This document shows, piece after piece, positions 13,866 to 33,643 of a stretch of 33,643 bases of DNA. The notes under the pieces were generated by a model. It had not been told where the DNA came from. It saw nothing but the letters and a program-made list of their open reading frames with translations, and did no database searches. Source of the DNA: a virus; the IMG/VR virus record IMGVR_UViG_3300036885_000082, positions 1 through 33,643 of that record. The stretch is one strand, 5' to 3'. Each line of letters opens with the position of its first letter. Within the stretch, counting starts at the first letter, position 1. The position numbers and the translations under genes are program-made.

Positions 13866-14516
13866 TTATTTCTTCCCTGCGGCAGCCCTAAGCTGTTCGG
13901 CAAGTTCGGGGTTCTCTTTAATAAGTTTCCCCTGCTCGGTCATATTAAAATGTTCTTTTGAAAATGGATTTTTGCCCTTGAAATTTTTACTAAAGTCGTC
14001 GCCGTTTGGAGCGTCTCTGCCATTTTCCTTAAACTTAATCGCAACGGCTTCATTTACGGCTGTGTCAAATAACAATACAAATTTTGCTACGTTCGTGTTA
14101 ACAGCCTCCTCAGTATCGCCGATCTCTAACAAGTCCAGTAAGTCCTTGTTAATTTTCTTACCGTCGAGTACCTTGAGAGCCTTATTCTTAAGTCCCATGA
14201 TCGTGACATTTTTCTGAGAGGCTTCAAATTTCTGCTCAAGCTCTCTAAGTTTTTTATCTGCGGGCGTTTCGTCGGGGTGTAGTTTGATGTATTCAGCGTT
14301 AACCAGCGCACTCAAGTTATTTTTCTTAAAGGTTTCAATCCCTTGAGAGACTCTCTGATCGGTTAAGCTATTTGCGAGTTTCTTTCCGTCCTCCGTACCT
14401 TCCAAGAAGCCTTTAACCTTATCGCTTGTTAGCGGGCTAAGTTCTCCGAGTAAAGCAATCACTTCGGGCGTACTTGCGTGCTCTGATAAATAAGCTCTGA
14501 TCTCTGCTATTGTCAA
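13866..14516 (-). CDS. Capsid scaffolding protein (DUF4355-like)
   Basis: A 216-residue, strongly helical and charged protein. Residues ~10-80 contain 'VKGFLEGTEDGKKLANSLTD' and 'VSQGIETFKKNNLSALVNAE', characteristic of the DUF4355 scaffold family, followed by a coiled coil ('DKKLRELEQKFEASQKNV'). The C-terminus is basic and Ala-rich. The apparent start is TTG at 14516 with GAGG five nt upstream. It overlaps a 5-codon ATG minicistron (14513-14530) that has the better SD; a one-base change in the T5 run would fuse both as MTRYF-LTIAEIR. The role is to guide capsid assembly and then leave the shell. Confidence 0.85.
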   Translation of the reverse strand: MTIAEIRAYLSEHASTPEVIALLGELSPLTSDKVKGFLEGTEDGKKLANSLTDQRVSQGIETFKKNNLSALVNAEYIKLHPDETPADKKLRELEQKFEASQKNVTIMGLKNKALKVLDGKKINKDLLDLLEIGDTEEAVNTNVAKFVLLFDTAVNEAVAIKFKENGRDAPNGDDFSKNFKGKNPFSKEHFNMTEQGKLIKENPELAEQLRAAAGKK

Positions 14517-14576: not shown

Positions 14577-14670
14577 TACATTAAAAAATCAATGGAGAAA
14601 AGTATTGAGTAAATTCCGTGATGTCTCCCTTAAAATTAGAAGGGATTATTTTGCTGACTATCTCCGACTA

Positions 14671-14808: not shown

Positions 14809-14828
14809 TTTAATGATCGGTCATTAAA
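14809..14828. repeat. 8-bp inverted repeat, possible operator
   Basis: TTTAATGA - TCGG - TCATTAAA is a perfect dyad placed just past the terminator of the HTH cassette. It may be a regulator-binding site. A short hairpin role is less likely because it follows a complete terminator. Confidence 0.45.
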
Positions 14829-14853
14829 AAAGCCTCTGTAACTGTCAGAGGCT
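14826..14853 (-). terminator. Rho-independent terminator of the HTH cassette
   Basis: On the minus strand AGCCTCTG - ACAGTTA - CAGAGGCT is a perfect 8-bp stem followed by TTTTT. It ends the cassette that begins at the promoter near 16740. Confidence 0.92.
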
Positions 14854-14936
14854 TCATTATGATATTAGATAAGGTTTAACGGTATTAAGTCACGTAGCGA
14901 GGCTCTATGATAGCTTTGCGGCTTAATGACTGCATA

Positions 14937-15185
14937 TTAAGTGAACCATTTTTTACTATCGTCGTCCCATATAATAAACAGCGTATTATATTTCTGTAGT
15001 CCGGTGATCTTTCCGGTTGTCACGGCTTCATAAACGGCTTGCCTTGAGCAACCTTTTAATTTTATGAAGTCACGCAACCAAACCTCGTCACCTTTTGAGT
15101 GATGTTTTTTGAACGTATCTACTTTGATGAAGTCTGGCAGTGAACCGACTGGCTTGCGCTTTTTAATTACGATTTTCTTTTTCAT
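14937..15185 (-). CDS. Small HTH (excisionase/MerR-like) DNA-binding protein
   Basis: An 82-residue, very basic protein; its ATG overlaps the previous stop (ATGA). The N-terminal 12 residues are Lys/Arg-rich. Residues ~41-70 ('LRDFIKLKGCSRQAVYEAVT', 'GKITGL') look like a winged HTH of the excisionase type, in which a recognition helix reads DNA and 'G.I...' starts the wing. It is the last gene of a self-contained cassette and lies upstream of two inverted repeats that it could bind. It may regulate late transcription; this is inferred. Confidence 0.6.
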   Translation of the reverse strand: MKKKIVIKKRKPVGSLPDFIKVDTFKKHHSKGDEVWLRDFIKLKGCSRQAVYEAVTTGKITGLQKYNTLFIIWDDDSKKWFT

Positions 15186-15448
15186 CTCATCTCCATTTTT
15201 TTAAGTGTTTCCTTGACTCCCTCGAAAGCCTGACGACCTTCCGTAATTACTTGCATAAGTTCACGCATTGACTTCTCGCTGTTAGCATGGATTACAATAG
15301 CAGTACGTTTATAAATAATTGAGAGAGGTCTCTTGTCGGATAATAAAGCCGGAACTGCGGCGACTTTTTGCTGTAAGTATTTCTCAAGTCCGGCTGGTGA
15401 TGTCTCGTTATGTCCGAACCGGACTGATAATTTAGTTAATCGCTTCAT
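15182..15448 (-). CDS. Small protein of unknown function
   Basis: An 88-residue protein with AGGAG six nt before the ATG and a TAATG overlap with its upstream neighbour. It has a basic N-terminus ('KRLTKLSVRFGHNE'), a middle strand pair ('LSIIYKRTAIVIHA') and a C-terminal amphipathic helix ('FEGVKETLKKMEMR'). I recognise no family. It is translationally coupled on both sides, so it probably works with the 98-residue protein and the HTH protein. Confidence 0.7.
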   Translation of the reverse strand: MKRLTKLSVRFGHNETSPAGLEKYLQQKVAAVPALLSDKRPLSIIYKRTAIVIHANSEKSMRELMQVITEGRQAFEGVKETLKKMEMR

Positions 15449-15744
15449 TATAAGCTCCTCATTATTTCTTGTTGTTCAATGTTAATTAAATATAAATACT
15501 GTTCGTCTCCAAAGTCAAGCGGCTCTTTCGTACAGATTGCTCCCCAATAGTTTCGCATTAAAGGATTATGAATTTTCATAATACATAACGGTATTCTCTC
15601 GTCTGTATCCGTCGCCTGTATCTGATAAAGATAACACGTTCCCCTCACACCTTGAAAGGCACTCATTTTATTTGGAGTAATGAGAGCCTCCTTACCTCTG
15701 AATAAAAAATAAAGCGTATCGGGACTTTCCATAAGTTTATACAT
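15448..15744 (-). CDS. Small protein of unknown function
   Basis: A 98-residue protein with GAGG six nt before the ATG. It is beta-rich ('DTLYFLFRGKEALIT', 'GTCYLYQIQATDTD', 'IPLCIMKIHNP', 'YLYLINIEQQE') with no membrane segment or known motif, and looks like a small single-domain protein. It is the second gene of the cassette that starts at the 16.7-kb promoter, 58 nt after the DUF7192-like gene. Confidence 0.7.
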   Translation of the reverse strand: MYKLMESPDTLYFLFRGKEALITPNKMSAFQGVRGTCYLYQIQATDTDERIPLCIMKIHNPLMRNYWGAICTKEPLDFGDEQYLYLINIEQQEIMRSL

Positions 15745-15802
15745 TGTTAACCTCTGCGAATGTTAGCATGGACTCGCTCATATTTACTCCGTTGTTTTAT
15801 GA

Positions 15803-16681
15803 TTAAATTTTTTCTTCAAAGGTCACGTATTCACTTAAAATTTTTCTCCATTCGTCCTGAGTCATGCTGTAAGATGATCTTGTTAAATAAATACCTTTCT
15901 CAGCCGGTACTTCTCTCGGATAACCATAGCCGCCGCTTGCTGTGATAGTGAGGAGCGTTCTCTCTGCTTCCGAGAAGCTCTCGAAATATCTAAGCATTAA
16001 CCTTCTAAAAAATGAAACGTGTCCGAGTACGAAAGCTAACTTGTCAAAATCAAGCATCTGATCTGGCTGCTTAATAGTGATGTATGTATATACGCCTGTA
16101 CTGCCTGAGCTACTTGAGCTACTTGAGGCCAAGCCGTCGCACAAAATAATCTCTGTCGAATAACCTGAAATTTCCAGCATTTCGACTGCCTGGACCATAT
16201 TAGCTCCACGTTTCATAAAGTCGTCCTCTGTGACGAAACACGCTGCGGCTATGTTAGCGTATATTTTAACAACTCCCCTTGAGCCTCTGCCTTCGACTTC
16301 CGTGATCTCCTCGCTTAACCAATATTCGGGCGTGCCTTCTAAAAAGGTTGCGGTGTCAAAAAATAAACCTGAGTCTGCAAATATTATTTGAGGTTTCAAG
16401 ACTTTTGCGCTTGTTGCGTGTAACCGGCTATACATTTCCTTCATTTTGGCTGCTGTCTCAGGGCAACCCTTCTGGGCTTTCTCAAACGCTTCCCCGTAAG
16501 TCAGGTGACCGAAAAACTCGACTCTGCTTGCGTCGTTTGAGTGAGCCCATTCAGGAACTTCTGCGTTATTTATATGCGTTAAGAATTCTTCGAGCGAATT
16601 AAAATACTTTTCTCTCATGTTCGCTGATCTCTTGGCTGCGGGCTCGTAGGGAGTATTAAAAGAAACGTTACCACTTGCAAT
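15803..16681 (-). CDS. DUF7192-like phage protein, apparent ATT start
   Basis: The first ATG (16618) gives 271 residues but has only a poor SD. The frame is open upstream, and ATT at 16679-16681 stands five nt after GGAG, exactly where the twin operon at 27.0 kb has ATG; this start adds 21 residues (292 in all). The protein has 'FFGHLTYGEAFEKAQKGCPE' (the S/TxxEAxxxAxxGxPE motif of DUF7192-like phage proteins), 'VKIYANIAAACFVTEDDFMK', 'RGANMVQAVEMLEISGYSTE' and a Ser run near residue 190. Function unknown. It heads a cassette with its own promoter and terminator. Confidence 0.7.
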   Translation of the reverse strand: MASGNVSFNTPYEPAAKRSANMREKYFNSLEEFLTHINNAEVPEWAHSNDASRVEFFGHLTYGEAFEKAQKGCPETAAKMKEMYSRLHATSAKVLKPQIIFADSGLFFDTATFLEGTPEYWLSEEITEVEGRGSRGVVKIYANIAAACFVTEDDFMKRGANMVQAVEMLEISGYSTEIILCDGLASSSSSSSGSTGVYTYITIKQPDQMLDFDKLAFVLGHVSFFRRLMLRYFESFSEAERTLLTITASGGYGYPREVPAEKGIYLTRSSYSMTQDEWRKILSEYVTFEEKI

Positions 16682-16723
16682 GCTGTCTCCGTTGTATAAT
16701 TTGTTATTTTTAATGTCATTGTA

Positions 16724-16752
16724 ATAATAAGTATTGCATTACATATTGTCAA
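16724..16752 (-). promoter_or_regulatory. Sigma70-type promoter P1
   Basis: On the minus strand TTGACA (16747-16752), 17-nt spacer, TATTAT (16724-16729). Upstream is a T-rich tract with three copies of TTTCATTTTA that could act as an UP element. Twenty bases before and including the -35, and a 20-base block just after the -10 (TGACATTAAAAATAACAAAT), are identical to promoter P2 at 27.05 kb. It drives the DUF7192-like cassette. Confidence 0.88.
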
Positions 16753-16806
16753 GTAAAAAATGAAATAAAATGAAATAAAATGAAATTATTTTTATAATAG
16801 GCAAGA

Positions 16807-16844
16807 CTCGCACGTAACGAGCCTTTTCAACTGTTACGTACGAG
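16807..16844 (-). terminator. Terminator-like hairpin after the metallophosphoesterase gene
   Basis: CTCGTACGTAAC and GTTACGTGCGAG (minus strand) form a 12-bp stem with one G-U pair and a 14-nt loop, 31 nt past the stop codon. The following sequence is T/A-rich but not a clean T-run, so termination may be partial or it may be an RNA-stabilising hairpin. Confidence 0.6.
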
Positions 16845-16874
16845 CGTTTTGAGTGCGGCTAAACTGCTAACATC

Positions 16875-18104
16875 TTATATAATAATTTCGAGTACAGGTT
16901 TATGCTGAATTAACTTGCTCACGCTCTTAGCGTTATATGCTTCGAGCTCCTCAGCTATCGGATAACCTTCGTATAAACTTACGTCCTGTAAATCAAAATT
17001 AAATTTGTCGATACCTGTTTTAGATACCAAATAACCATTCTGCGAGGCTTTCCCTGCGAGGTTAAGCCCCTTCTCATTATAATCATTTGAGCCAGCCAGG
17101 GACGAGCTGCGGGCGAACCAATCGGATATATAACAGGTGTGAAGGTGTCCGAATATTACAAAATGGATTATGATGTCACGCTTTGCATACTTGCCGACTA
17201 CTTGCTGGATAGTCTTTTGAGTGTTTGAGTCTCCGAGACTTTCTCCATGCAGCATTAAAATATTTTGTCCGGCAATATTAAAGTAATATTCAACAGGGTC
17301 TCCCTCGTGAAAGCTAACACCCTTTTTATTTTTGAAGCCTAATTTTAATAACTGAAATATCGTATAATCATAATTATCGGTCGCAACAGGGTCAACAAGC
17401 CCTCTCAATAATCCGATACGTGACTCGTTTCCGGTTACAGTACATACCGTTATATTCGCAGTTTTATTAAGATCAATAATAAATTTACTTAAGAGTTCGT
17501 AAGCCAGAAACGTCGCCTTGCTTCGATTAGTGCTTTGCATTAAGAGTTCGTCAAGCCTCCGGTCACTGTTCATAAGATCACCAGTGAGAGCGACTACGAT
17601 CTGCTTAACATTATTTAATCTTGCAATGCGTTTTAATTTATATGCGAATTTTTGCAAGCGTTTCGAGGCGAAAGTAAAATCATATTTATTATGCGGTAAA
17701 TTTATTAACTCGTTAAAGTGCGGGTCTGATATATGTGCTATTAGCGCAACTCCCTCCGTGTTAGCTTTATGCTTAACGGTTCGGAAGTTAATAGCATTGT
17801 CTCTGAATACTTTTATAAGCTCCTGAGTGTACTCGCCGATTGCATTTTCAACACGAGTAACCTCTCTAAAAGATTTGTCCTTTATACGATTTGCGTCACG
17901 AGATTTCTGCAAGCGTTTTGCAAGTGAAATATTTTCCTCAATGACTTCAAAGTCGGCTGTGTCCTCCGTAAATAAACGAGCACACCCCTCCGCTATATTC
18001 ATACATTTATAACGCTGCTTATTTTCCCCTGACGCTAACATCATTCTCCCTGAGAGAATAACCTTATCAGAGCCACACGAAGGACATAATGTTTTATGAG
18101 CCAC
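16875..18104 (-). CDS. Metallophosphoesterase with N-terminal zinc ribbon
   Basis: A 409-residue protein. Residues 7-41 form a zinc ribbon (C7-C10 ... C34 ... C41). The catalytic domain carries the calcineurin-like motifs: 'ISDPHFN' (D127, H129), 'LTGDLMNSDR' (D176), 'GNESR' (225-229, with Glu where GNH has His), 'MLHGES' (H286) and 'FGHLHT' (319-323). Such phage enzymes hydrolyse phosphodiesters and may trim DNA or a nucleotide; the substrate is unknown here. It is the last gene of the head-packaging operon, followed by a terminator-like hairpin. The changed GNH motif may weaken or shift activity. Confidence 0.85.
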   Translation of the reverse strand: MAHKTLCPSCGSDKVILSGRMMLASGENKQRYKCMNIAEGCARLFTEDTADFEVIEENISLAKRLQKSRDANRIKDKSFREVTRVENAIGEYTQELIKVFRDNAINFRTVKHKANTEGVALIAHISDPHFNELINLPHNKYDFTFASKRLQKFAYKLKRIARLNNVKQIVVALTGDLMNSDRRLDELLMQSTNRSKATFLAYELLSKFIIDLNKTANITVCTVTGNESRIGLLRGLVDPVATDNYDYTIFQLLKLGFKNKKGVSFHEGDPVEYYFNIAGQNILMLHGESLGDSNTQKTIQQVVGKYAKRDIIIHFVIFGHLHTCYISDWFARSSSLAGSNDYNEKGLNLAGKASQNGYLVSKTGIDKFNFDLQDVSLYEGYPIAEELEAYNAKSVSKLIQHKPVLEIII

Positions 18105-26143: not shown

Positions 26144-26198
26144 AGATAAAACCATGAAAAACATTAAATTAAAAGTATAGAGGTAAGACGGTACTGTC

Positions 26199-26218
26199 TC
26201 CCTTCTTTTGGTAAGGGA
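26199..26218 (-). repeat. Short hairpin between terminator and tRNA-like element
   Basis: TCCCTT and AAGGGA form a 6-bp stem with an 8-nt loop. It follows the terminator at 26222-26257 and may be a back-up terminator or an RNA-processing hairpin. Nothing else is recognised in 26144-26221. Confidence 0.35.
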
Positions 26219-26221
26219 AAT

Positions 26222-26257
26222 AAAAAACCCGCTCTCTGGACTCCAACCATTAGCGGG
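26222..26257 (-). terminator. Rho-independent terminator of the DUF488 operon
   Basis: On the minus strand CCCGCT ... AGCGGG bracket an 18-nt region (which has its own TGGA/TCCA pairing) and are followed by TTTTTT. It lies 25 nt after the DUF488-like stop. Confidence 0.85.
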
Positions 26258-26282
26258 CTCTTACTTGTTACGGAGTGAGAAT

Positions 26283-26744
26283 TTAATCGAATAGGCTGAG
26301 GGGCTCTTTAATTCCGGCTGGCGCTTCAAATCTTGAGAACGGTTTACATACTCCTAAGTTGTCAGGATAACCGAACTCCTCAATTTTAATATTCAGTACG
26401 TCCATTAAGAATTTTGCTAAATAGTGACGGTGACATGAGTCGGAGGGCTTTTCAAAACAGACAAGGGCGAAGTCTTTTCCTCCGCTTAAGATTTCCCATC
26501 GTTGAACGAGGTCTTTAGCTCTGTATTGCTTGAGTATGTCGTCATATTCAGCATAAAAATAAAGCTGTCCCTCCCTGTCCCAATTATGAGCTTTTCCGGC
26601 TGCTAACATTGAGTCGGTCGGAGCGAGTCGTTTATCCATGTCTCCATTATACCACTTTGGAGGAAAGCGAGAGATTCCGATTGGAACGATACCAGCATTC
26701 CTCAGCTTCGTAAGATTTGCGAAATAAGATGTGTAGATTTTCAT
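26283..26744 (-). CDS. DUF488 family protein
   Basis: A 153-residue protein with GGAG five nt before the ATG. The start 'MKIYTSYFANLTKLR' and later 'PIGISRFPPKWYNG', and especially 'FALVCFEKPSDSCHRHYLAK' (C-x-E ... CHR), are the DUF488 signature. The function of the family is unknown; a Cys/His pocket suggests an enzyme, and homologues occur in phages near nucleic-acid modification genes. It is the second and last gene of the short operon driven by promoter P2. Confidence 0.8.
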   Translation of the reverse strand: MKIYTSYFANLTKLRNAGIVPIGISRFPPKWYNGDMDKRLAPTDSMLAAGKAHNWDREGQLYFYAEYDDILKQYRAKDLVQRWEILSGGKDFALVCFEKPSDSCHRHYLAKFLMDVLNIKIEEFGYPDNLGVCKPFSRFEAPAGIKEPLSLFD

Positions 26745-26767: not shown

Positions 26768-27010
26768 TTAATTTAATCCGCTTCCCTCACAAACACCGCA
26801 TCCGACTGTTAAGTCCTTAAATGGATGTGAGGTTGTGCCTGAGCCCTCGCAGTTATTACAGAACTTTCTTTTCTGTTTAATAAGTTCGGATATTTCGAGC
26901 ATTATATCAGCTCGATCTTCTTCGTTGTTTTCTGTTTTTTCTGATAGCAGAGTAAGGATGTCGATTTGTTCGTCGATCTCCTCAAGTGCGGTAAGTTTAA
27001 TTAAGGTCAT
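26768..27010 (-). CDS. Small DnaJ-type zinc-finger protein
   Basis: An 80-residue protein. The ATG at 27010 has GGAG five nt upstream; a GTG two codons earlier would overlap the SD. Residues ~8-50 form an acidic helix or coiled coil ('LEEIDEQIDILTLLSEK'). The C-terminal third has two CxxCxGxG repeats ('CNNCEGSG' and 'CGVCEGSG'), the DnaJ zinc-binding motif, which would hold one zinc ion. Such small proteins may act as partner-binding adaptors. It is the first gene after promoter P2. Confidence 0.75.
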   Translation of the reverse strand: MTLIKLTALEEIDEQIDILTLLSEKTENNEEDRADIMLEISELIKQKRKFCNNCEGSGTTSHPFKDLTVGCGVCEGSGLN

Positions 27011-27051
27011 GTTCACTCCGTTATGTATTTGTTATTTTTAATGTCAAATGA

Positions 27052-27080
27052 AATATAATCTGTACTTGTCAGAATGTCAA
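27052..27080 (-). promoter_or_regulatory. Sigma70-type promoter P2
   Basis: On the minus strand TTGACA (27075-27080), 17-nt spacer, TATATT (27052-27057). The 20 bases ending in the -35 and the 20 bases after position -2 (TGACATTAAAAATAACAAAT, 27032-27051 approx.) match promoter P1 exactly, with the same 5-nt gap after the -10. The shared initially transcribed block may bind a regulator. It drives the zinc-finger/DUF488 operon. Confidence 0.9.
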
Positions 27081-27099
27081 GTAAAAAATGAAATAAATT

Positions 27100-27137
27100 A
27101 AAAATAAATAAGCCGTCTCGATACCTCCGAGACGGCT
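27100..27137 (-). terminator. Terminator of the replication operon
   Basis: AGCCGTCTCG and CGAGACGGCT (27128-27137 and 27111-27120) form a perfect 10-bp stem with a 7-nt loop, followed on the minus strand by TATTTATTTTTAATTT. It lies 11 nt past the stop at 27149 and separates the early operon from promoter P2. Confidence 0.85.
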
Positions 27138-31988: not shown

Positions 31989-33134
31989 TTATTTAATTAT
32001 GTTTTTTATTTTAGGAACATGCTTATCTAAGCCGATTGCCTTTAATCGTTTCATGTAAAAATCATAATACCAGTGTCTCTTAATGTCGTCTTTGACGTCT
32101 GATATTAAAGCCTCGCATGAATTATGATCTCTCTCAAACGTTTCCGTTTTCAGAGCCTCAATAACCATTCTCAAAACGTCTGGCTTAGGTTTTTCTTCGG
32201 TAGGCTTAACGGGTTCTTTTTTTGTCGAGTCTTTTGTCGCTGGCTTTTTTCCCTCTGGCGCCGTTATCATTTTATTCTGCAGTTCTTTTTTCTTATCAGA
32301 GAATAAGGCTGTAAAACGCTTATACTGTTCGGGGTCTGTATGCACGATTTCATTATATAATATTCTCATATCATTAAGAGAGGTCATGGAAGCTATTTTT
32401 TTCTCAAGGGCTTCATCGTTCATTCCTTTTTGAGCTGTCTGAGGTTCTGGAGCTGGTTTTTTATCAGGTGACTTAATTCCGGTCTTATCCTTAAGGCTTT
32501 GAAGTGTTATAGCAGGTTTATTCGGGCTGTCAGCGGCGACGCTTGTCTCATCATAAAAAGGCATTGAATCAATATGCCTCCATTGGAACTCACCTTTTTT
32601 CTCACGTCCCTGCTTGTCTCTCCAAACTTTAACACCAAATTTCATAACCCAATTTTGAGACCAGCGAGGCTGCCAGCATTCCTTACCAATTCCTAAGTCT
32701 TTACAGTTTCTAACGAGTGAGTCTGACTTCGCTCCCTCATAACAAGTAGCCGGTGACATTTTAGAGTTATTATCATGGAACTGCATCTCACCGATTGCTC
32801 TGCTTATGAAGTGACCACGTATGTATAAACTACCGTCGAACATGTAAGTATTATTATTCTCAGTGACTCGGTTCTCTATTAAAGCCCATTGACCTATCCC
32901 GACTGATCTGTTAAGTCTCTCACGTACAAAAATATGAGGCATGTATATTAAGCCGTCAGGTCTGATGTTAACTTCGTCCTCTGAAACAGGAGCTAATAAG
33001 ATCGTTGTCTCCTCTGATGTTAACACGAGCGTACTTGCGTTCTGATACTGCTCGATCATCATTCGAGCCAAAGGCAGTTCGACTATTTCGCCGCTTTTTT
33101 TAATGATCGCTACTTCGCTGTTTTCAGTTTCCAT
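31989..33134 (-). CDS. Mgm101/Rad52-type ssDNA-annealing protein
   Basis: A 381-residue protein whose ATG overlaps the upstream stop (TAATG). Residues ~46-187 match the Mgm101 core: 'LLAPVSEDEVNIRPDGLIYM' (yeast Mgm101 has MAPV.EDDVEIKPDG..YLP), 'RLNRSVGIGQWALIE', 'MSPATCYEGAKSDSLVRNCK' and 'DLGIGKECWQPRW' (Mgm101: [24 protein letters not shown]). These mediate single-strand annealing. A Pro/Lys-rich linker (~200-330) and a short helical C-terminal domain follow. It probably serves as the phage recombinase with SSB. No exonuclease partner is seen in the window. Confidence 0.85.
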   Translation of the reverse strand: METENSEVAIIKKSGEIVELPLARMMIEQYQNASTLVLTSEETTILLAPVSEDEVNIRPDGLIYMPHIFVRERLNRSVGIGQWALIENRVTENNNTYMFDGSLYIRGHFISRAIGEMQFHDNNSKMSPATCYEGAKSDSLVRNCKDLGIGKECWQPRWSQNWVMKFGVKVWRDKQGREKKGEFQWRHIDSMPFYDETSVAADSPNKPAITLQSLKDKTGIKSPDKKPAPEPQTAQKGMNDEALEKKIASMTSLNDMRILYNEIVHTDPEQYKRFTALFSDKKKELQNKMITAPEGKKPATKDSTKKEPVKPTEEKPKPDVLRMVIEALKTETFERDHNSCEALISDVKDDIKRHWYYDFYMKRLKAIGLDKHVPKIKNIIK

Positions 33135-33643
33135 TATTCACCGTCCTTTATGTCTGATTTTGTTAAGCGGTCTATTGCGTCTATATATTCCCCATATTCT
33201 GCGATCTGCTTATCTGAATAATTTTCTTTCTTTCCAATAGTTTTGAATGACTTGAGCCATTTATCAATGGGGTAATTATGGCAGCCAATAGATAGGGTTC
33301 TCTTGCCTGTATAGGTGAGGGGATGTTGACTGCCGACTATATAAATACATTTGATTAGTTTTATGTCGTAACCGATTAAAGCTCCGTAACCGATTGAAGC
33401 TTCGCGACCGATTGAAGCTCCGTCACCGATTGAAGCTTCGCGACCGATTAAAGCTCCGTCACCGATTGAAGCTCTGTCACCGATTGAAGCTCTGTCACCG
33501 ATTGAAGCTCCGTCACCGATTGAAGCTCCGTCACCGATTGAAGCTCCGCGACCGATTGAAGCTCTGTCACCGATTAAAGCTCTGTCACCGATTGAAGCTC
33601 CGTCACCGATTAAAGCTTCGCGACCGATTGAAGCTCTGTCACC
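33134..33643 (-). CDS. Hexapeptide-repeat (left-handed beta-helix) protein, N-terminus outside window
   Basis: The frame is open to the right edge; 169 C-terminal codons are visible. At least 15 hexapeptides of the form I-G-[DR]-[GRE]-A-[SL] form five or more turns of a left-handed beta-helix. A C-terminal cap follows: 'YIVGSQHPLTYTGKRTLSIG', 'CHNYPIDKWLKSFKTIG', 'KKENYSDKQIAEYGEYI'. This cap recurs in phage and Bacteroidota hexapeptide proteins of unknown function ('...IGc.....wl.....IGk.e.Y...qi.eY..yi'). Stop overlaps the Mgm101-like ATG. It lacks visible acyltransferase loops, so the usual sugar-acyltransferase role is doubtful. Confidence 0.8.
   Translation of the reverse strand, partial: GDRASIGREALIGDGASIGDRALIGDRASIGRGASIGDGASIGDGASIGDRASIGDRASIGDGALIGREASIGDGASIGREASIGYGALIGYDIKLIKCIYIVGSQHPLTYTGKRTLSIGCHNYPIDKWLKSFKTIGKKENYSDKQIAEYGEYIDAIDRLTKSDIKDGE
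33371..33640 (-). repeat. 18-bp tandem repeat array, 15 units visible, coding
   Basis: ACCGAT recurs every 18 nt from 33371 to 33623 (plus strand) and the array continues past the edge. Units differ at a few fixed positions (tga/taa, tcc/tct/ttc, gtc/gcg/gta), i.e. Ser/Leu, Gly/Arg/Glu and Asp/Arg/Tyr exchanges. It encodes the hexapeptide repeats, so it is not a CRISPR or an origin iteron array. Confidence 0.95.

Follow-up and report, generated by a model that had tools for sequence, protein, structure and literature searches.

The unit described here lies in a 33.6-kb IMG/VR virus record, the whole of which is referred to below as the window; at its ends the genome is incomplete by a few kb. 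On the minus strand, positions 16753-14827 hold a bounded unit made up of a sigma70-type promoter, four tightly spaced ORFs and an intrinsic terminator. The ORFs are, in order, 271, 98, 88 and 82 aa long, with a 58-nt gap after the first and junctions of 1-nt and 4-nt overlap thereafter, the last three thus overlapping. The first (15803-16618) encodes a DUF7192 protein (Pfam DUF7192, E 4e-33) that is predicted to be a compact vWA domain with a degenerate MIDAS (NIAAA). It is followed by an LPD28-domain protein (15448-15744; Pfam PF18843, E 8.5e-8, over the cut-off), an 88-aa protein with no match in the family search (15182-15448) and an excisionase/HTH_17-like helix-turn-helix protein (14937-15185) with orthologues in both of the related phages discussed below. 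Folding identified the terminator, AAGCCTCTG-ACAGTTA-CAGAGGCTT-TTTT (14863-14827; -17.3 kcal/mol, z = -5.0), which no shuffled sequence equalled and which is directly followed by its T-run. A further minus-strand hairpin 5' of the promoter (16805-16845, z -3.1, weak U-tract) is the probable end of the phosphoesterase transcript. All elements of the four-gene unit that an earlier note had described, the dedicated promoter and terminator included, are present. Its placement between the scaffold and head-packaging genes needs partial revision: the scaffold gene (13866-14516) does adjoin the unit, but the other side is occupied by portal, MuF and phosphoesterase genes, the last of these (16875-18104) being the immediate neighbor. 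Defence-system profiles gave no matches to the four proteins, and a search of the window for RNA families and tRNAs found neither.

The promoter, TTGACA-17-TATTAT at 16752-16724 (-35 box 16752-16747, -10 box 16729-16724), matches the consensus at 11 of 12 positions and is the best site in the region. It belongs to a 52-bp promoter-leader module on the minus strand (16702-16753), which starts with CTTGACA and bears GACATTAAAAATAACA in the leader after the -10 box. Downstream of it is the ribosome-binding site ACAACGGAG (16687-16695, minus strand), which is common to most copies of the module and stands 5-6 nt 5' of both an ATT in the DUF7192 frame and the TTG of a 21-codon leader ORF that ends as an ATGA overlapping the DUF7192 ATG. 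The DUF7192 frame is open 5' of this ATG (16619-16738), with a good ribosome-binding site before the in-frame ATT; among the relatives, one starts the gene further upstream (L004) and the other at the equivalent of the ATG (L015). The true start is hence uncertain, with the ATG at 16618 being provisional and the frame open to about 16738.

The stretch 16699-16781 recurs at 27027-27109 with 76% identity over 83 nt, and BLASTN aligns the two copies over 97 nt at 80% identity (E 2e-12). Repeat comparison together with a weight matrix places the second copy of the module at 27030-27081, also on the minus strand. The first gene under it encodes an 82-aa zinc-finger-like protein with CxxC pairs (26768-27016, minus strand), for which an orthologue is found in L026, and the second a DUF488 protein (26283-26744, minus strand; Pfam DUF488-N3a, E 2.6e-9), 52-55% identical to its orthologue in the L004 contig. 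A terminator hairpin (GAGCCCGC...GCGGGTTTTTT, 26222-26262, minus strand, z -2.4) closes this operon. The DUF488 protein also weakly matches the candidate phage-defence profiles PDC-M19A and PDC-M45C. A 34-nt element containing a CCCTT...AAGGG hairpin follows the terminator of each module-driven unit on its 3' side, at 14598-14631 and 26171-26204 (76% identical), so that the two units may have a common downstream element as well as an upstream one.

The search of IMG/VR found as relatives only two fragments from an almost identical phage (L002, 99.98%; L003, 100%), the contig L004, whose DUF7192 and TerL are respectively 57% and 83% identical to those of the window, and the more distant L015, with a DUF7192 that is 40% identical. 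L004 has six copies of the module, positioned over a 92-aa gene, an AAA+ gene, DUF7192, DUF6876, the zinc-finger gene and DUF488, with the AAA+ and DUF7192 genes each having a copy of their own. The geometry, CTTG..-N-GACA, is the same at the two sites in the window and the six in L004: CTTGACA starts seven of the eight copies, while CTTG and its distance to GACA are common to all eight. A weight matrix built from L004 alone recovered exactly two sites in the window, scoring 28.8 and 23.1 bits, against 2.4 bits for the next-best site and a maximum of 7.4 for shuffled sequence; a module scan of the entire IMG/VR collection showed no occurrence outside the present lineage. The earlier note had linked the unit to the zinc-finger/DUF488 pair through a shared promoter, and the BLASTN match, along with the repetition of the module at both loci in L004, bears this out. 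The strict two-locus system that it envisaged, however, gives way to a multi-unit regulon in view of the six copies in L004.

Within a phage the copies show a likeness of 0.69 (window pair) or 0.63-0.81 (five L004 copies), whereas orthologous pairs between phages reach 0.56-0.67, mostly below the within-phage values. This is what would be expected of sites that coevolve with a common regulator or are homogenized by recombination. A palindrome, CTTGACA-N3-TGTCAAG, spans the -35 box at a fixed distance of 29 nt from the GACA motif of the leader. Given that it is perfect in one copy alone, with four to seven of the seven pairs retained across the copies, its role as an operator is a suggestion rather than a result. 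A role for the module as a lysogeny operator was considered and rejected, as the early region beside the L004 repressor does not contain it.

Comparison of the related phages also shows which parts of the unit are conserved. The window and L004 are collinear, and between MuF and the scaffold they have just two genes in common, DUF7192 and that for the helix-turn-helix protein (each 57% identical). Between these two the window encodes the LPD28 and 88-aa proteins, L004 a 101-aa protein and DUF6876, and L015 a DUF4942 protein. The stable four-gene cassette implied by the earlier note, and with it the idea of a single conserved block, is thus not borne out, the middle genes having been swapped in both relatives while the outer two persist. 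The fixed site therefore varies in content between relatives, in terms of both the presence or absence of the AAA+ gene and the exchange of the middle genes. In L004 the DUF7192-to-HTH stretch is flanked by a repeat, CATATCAATTCACACC (L011:13973-14006 and L011:16131-16164), which is a possible exchange boundary. The window phosphoesterase/exonuclease (phrog_284), which has an N-terminal zinc ribbon, fills an accessory slot that L004 devotes to the 92-aa and AAA+ units. L004 further encodes a large N-6 DNA methylase (L011:956-3307; type I-like, by eye) in the interval that separates the DUF488 unit from the ParB-like/terminase region, where the window has nothing. At the right end of the window (33331-33643, minus strand), 18-nt tandem repeats correspond to a hexapeptide-repeat protein (SIGDGA-type), whose ORF is cut by the contig end and lies upstream of a recombination-type gene (31989-33134).

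Inspection of translations by eye revealed genes for a tyrosine integrase and an S24-type repressor in L004, the corresponding end being absent from the window; this suggests that the lineage is probably temperate. A search of a genome contig collection for prophages with DUF7192 and TerL profiles found none, one of the DUF7192 alignments (A1) being too diverse for a contig scan. The earlier note had offered either a moron or an immediate-early takeover unit. The first of these gains from the independent promoter and terminator, the variable slot, and the integrase and repressor of L004, which are as expected of a moron. With L004 being probably temperate, a moron-type regulon fits better than an immediate-early takeover unit.

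The same note had assigned no known function to any of the four proteins, and this holds for the 88-aa protein, which matches nothing. The 98-aa protein, on the other hand, belongs to a named family, scoring 32.2 bits against the LPD28 Pfam model with a cut-off of 27. Searches for its relatives returned none in plasmids, and phages yielded a single weak match (E 0.2). In polyvalent proteins LPD28 occurs linked to a metallopeptidase domain, and LPDs outside such proteins often adjoin phage structural or secretion genes (PMC5512222), though no function follows for the 98-aa protein from the linkage by itself. The assignment of the last protein as a helix-turn-helix protein rests on homology to its relatives (L004, 57% over 60 aa; L015, 45% over 47 aa), the matches to HTH_17/excisionase families being weak and to the orthologues alone. 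Since it is the sole conserved gene besides DUF7192, its product is the likeliest candidate for a local regulator of the module.

DUF7192 itself, for which the searched literature has no paper naming the family, matches the family profile (Pfam PF23822; phrog_1909 in PHROGs) with 115.3 Pfam bits (cut-off 27) over positions 15-242 of the 281-position profile. Several comparisons bear on its fold. Profile-profile alignment by hhalign against the vWA domain of phage CobT gave a P of 8.2e-5 and a score of 38.5, with a probability of 61% that is not above 90%; 20 column shuffles scored at most 18.4 and an AAA control 13.1. In this alignment the MIDAS loops are in register, GMDASGSS being placed over YANIAAAC. 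The metal-binding MIDAS residues are absent from the window protein, which has NIAAA in place of an intact DxSxS, a pattern that some homologues alone approach (DVTSSGG in phiM5 and NATVSGG in Tunturi_4, near DxSxSG). An AF2 model of the protein reached a pTM of 0.76 with a 40-residue low-confidence gap. When it was searched against the PDB, vWA chains (Ku and NorD among them) dominated, albeit weakly, with low TM-scores and no E below 0.08, and in the viral fold search the best matches after DUF7192 itself were phage CobT/vWA proteins. A second model, for a Rhizobium-type homologue, was poor (pLDDT 53), a sequence-only PDB search with the DUF7192 profile gave nothing relevant, and no CobT_C match was obtained, DUF7192 being the sole Pfam match of the window protein. 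Judged from profiles and predicted models, DUF7192 very probably adopts the form of a compact vWA domain in which the MIDAS is largely degenerate.

The genomic neighborhood of the family points to a partner. In L004 an AAA_5 gene (L004:6504-7685; phrog_249 'porphyrin biosynthesis', E 2e-45; near CobS) lies directly upstream of DUF7192 (L004:7917-8789), and in L015 the C-terminus of an AAA+ protein occupies the same position at the contig end. The same arrangement is seen in Kayvirus (Staphylococcus), Mycobacterium, Rhizobium, Sinorhizobium, Tunturiibacter, Listeria, Gordonia, crAss-like and two uncultured phages, and in an Enterococcus phage the AAA_5 gene is nearby in reversed order, with DUF7192 first. 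A CobS/MoxR-type AAA+ is thus the habitual neighbor of DUF7192 in about ten phage groups; 236 Staphylococcus records were matched by both searches, the Mycobacterium counts being 86 and 82-83. Mycobacteriophages also have second DUF7192 copies without an adjoining AAA+, and in the complete genome of phage Kingsolomon a DUF7192 gene is present while the AAA+ query matches nothing. In Sinorhizobium phage phiM5 a small ORF within the AAA+ gene (L037:1349-1546) is annotated as found in the particle proteome. AAA+ proteins of the MoxR/CobS kind pair with vWA proteins (PMC7159879; PMC8651126), and some known vWA partners likewise are without MIDAS aspartates (PMC7159879). DUF7192 hence appears to serve a phage CobS/MoxR-type AAA+ ATPase as its vWA partner. 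No AAA_5 gene is detectable in the 33.6-kb window, which makes the DUF7192 copy here look like an orphan. Judging by L004, the right end that the window lacks would comprise about 4 kb with nuclease, repressor and integrase genes; as the absent genome ends could hold an AAA+ gene, its loss from this phage is likely but not proven.

Taken together, these observations lead us to favor, with moderate confidence, the interpretation that a probably temperate siphovirus here carries a moron-type accessory operon, encoding a vWA-fold adaptor whose AAA+ gene was lost from the locus or else lies in the few absent kb. From the lineage-specific sigma70 promoter-leader module, which recurs at the accessory units of these phages, host RNA polymerase would transcribe the operon without depending on the late structural genes, including, we infer, in the prophage. 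In the relatives, DUF7192 may dock on the CobS/MoxR-type AAA+ ring encoded by its neighbor and present a substrate, which the two would remodel or disassemble as a target protein complex using ATP, by analogy with RavA-ViaA, NorQ-NorD and similar pairs. The present protein, having no ring of its own, might borrow one or act by binding alone, and the LPD28 and 88-aa genes would represent exchangeable cargo between DUF7192 and the helix-turn-helix gene. A more elaborate version, which we consider rather doubtful, is an accessory regulon whose separately driven units, as many as six or more, all stand under a single co-evolving promoter-operator module. In that regulon an orphan MIDAS-less vWA protein, detached from its phage AAA+ ring, would work by capturing a host MoxR/CobS-type ATPase or its substrate.

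Alternatively, the unit might be a lytic early operon for host takeover, whose strong host promoters act on entry and whose DUF7192, LPD28 and HTH products disable host functions. The promoters are indeed strong and near consensus, the Kayvirus DUF7192/AAA+ pair lies among non-structural genes, and LPD domains have been discussed as early counter-defence proteins (PMC5512222); most Kayvirus transcription units are also already on at 5 min, a property that is not gene-specific (PMC7698491). Nevertheless, the closest relative, L004, is probably temperate, its early promoter region by the repressor lacks the module, and the arrangement of the unit amid late genes is that of a moron, which leaves takeover a possible but clearly secondary explanation. 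The position of the unit, which both in the window and in L015 immediately precedes the genes for scaffold and major capsid protein, and the service of AAA+/vWA pairs elsewhere in complex assembly (PMC7159879), could instead hint at an assembly chaperone or virion-associated component that aids head morphogenesis with the AAA+ ring. This is improbable given that the pair is far from the head genes in Mycobacterium and Gordonia phages (genome ends) and crAss-like phages (replication region), is on the strand opposite the structural block in the Rhizobium phage, and that the window unit has its own promoter and terminator; Kingsolomon, with its DUF7192 unaccompanied by an AAA+ query match, points the same way.

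Finally, the annotation of the phage AAA+ as 'porphyrin biosynthesis' (phrog_249), its PDB match to CobS (E 1.7e-4) and the proposal that cobST of tailed viruses hijacks host CobN (PMC8651126) raise the idea of a CobS/CobT-like cobaltochelatase accessory pair that increases host B12 synthesis, with DUF7192 being a shrunken CobT. We regard this as very improbable: DUF7192 has neither a CobT_C Pfam match nor an intact MIDAS, the AAA+ scores 22 bits where the CobS equivalog demands 559, and the window has no CobS.

In favoring a moron-type operon with a vWA adaptor, we note that more than 320 records of sequenced phages contain DUF7192 relatives, including those of therapy-studied Kayviruses, and assigning them as vWA partners of AAA+ proteins provides a testable function hypothesis for all of them. 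Some Kayvirus records label DUF7192 as 'AAA family ATPase' (L020:3938-4783 in Staphylococcus phage JYL02, and also CUB-M and CUB-B), apparently a misannotation transferred from the neighbor. In this lineage the module offers a simple tag by which accessory units can be recognized from sequence, and its common use suggests that morons may be organized into regulons instead of acting as isolated genes. While the moron unit and the AAA+/vWA partnership are of known kinds, what we infer to be new is the placement of DUF7192 as a vWA partner.

Among known systems, the MoxR-type AAA+/vWA chaperone pairs (RavA-ViaA, NorQ-NorD, CoxD-CoxE and the conflict ternary systems; PMC7159879) resemble the present one in that an AAA_5 gene adjoins a vWA-like gene in most relatives. 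Unlike them, DUF7192 is small, sequence-divergent and phage-borne, a third effector gene is not conserved, and the window copy is without the AAA+. The phage CobS/CobT pairs (Gordonia GMA7 gp72/gp71 and the archaeal tailed-virus cobST; PMC8651126) have the same layout, a vWA profile likeness and MIDAS loops in register, but the CobT-like partner is about 600 aa long with an intact DxSGS, as against about 280 aa and a degenerate loop in DUF7192. The inverted-repeat elements repeated upstream of unrelated genes in the extended start-associated sequences of Cluster K mycobacteriophages (PMC3203893) are comparable in organization; here, in contrast, the repeat is a sigma70 promoter plus leader that marks accessory units, and the sequences are unrelated. 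With prophage morons (PMC7067206, which cites Juhala et al. 2000 and Cumby et al. 2012), the unit has in common its own promoter and terminator, a variable slot among late genes, and presence/absence with exchange of cargo between relatives. It differs from these morons in that several units stand under one module, forming a regulon, and in that lysogen expression is here presumed.
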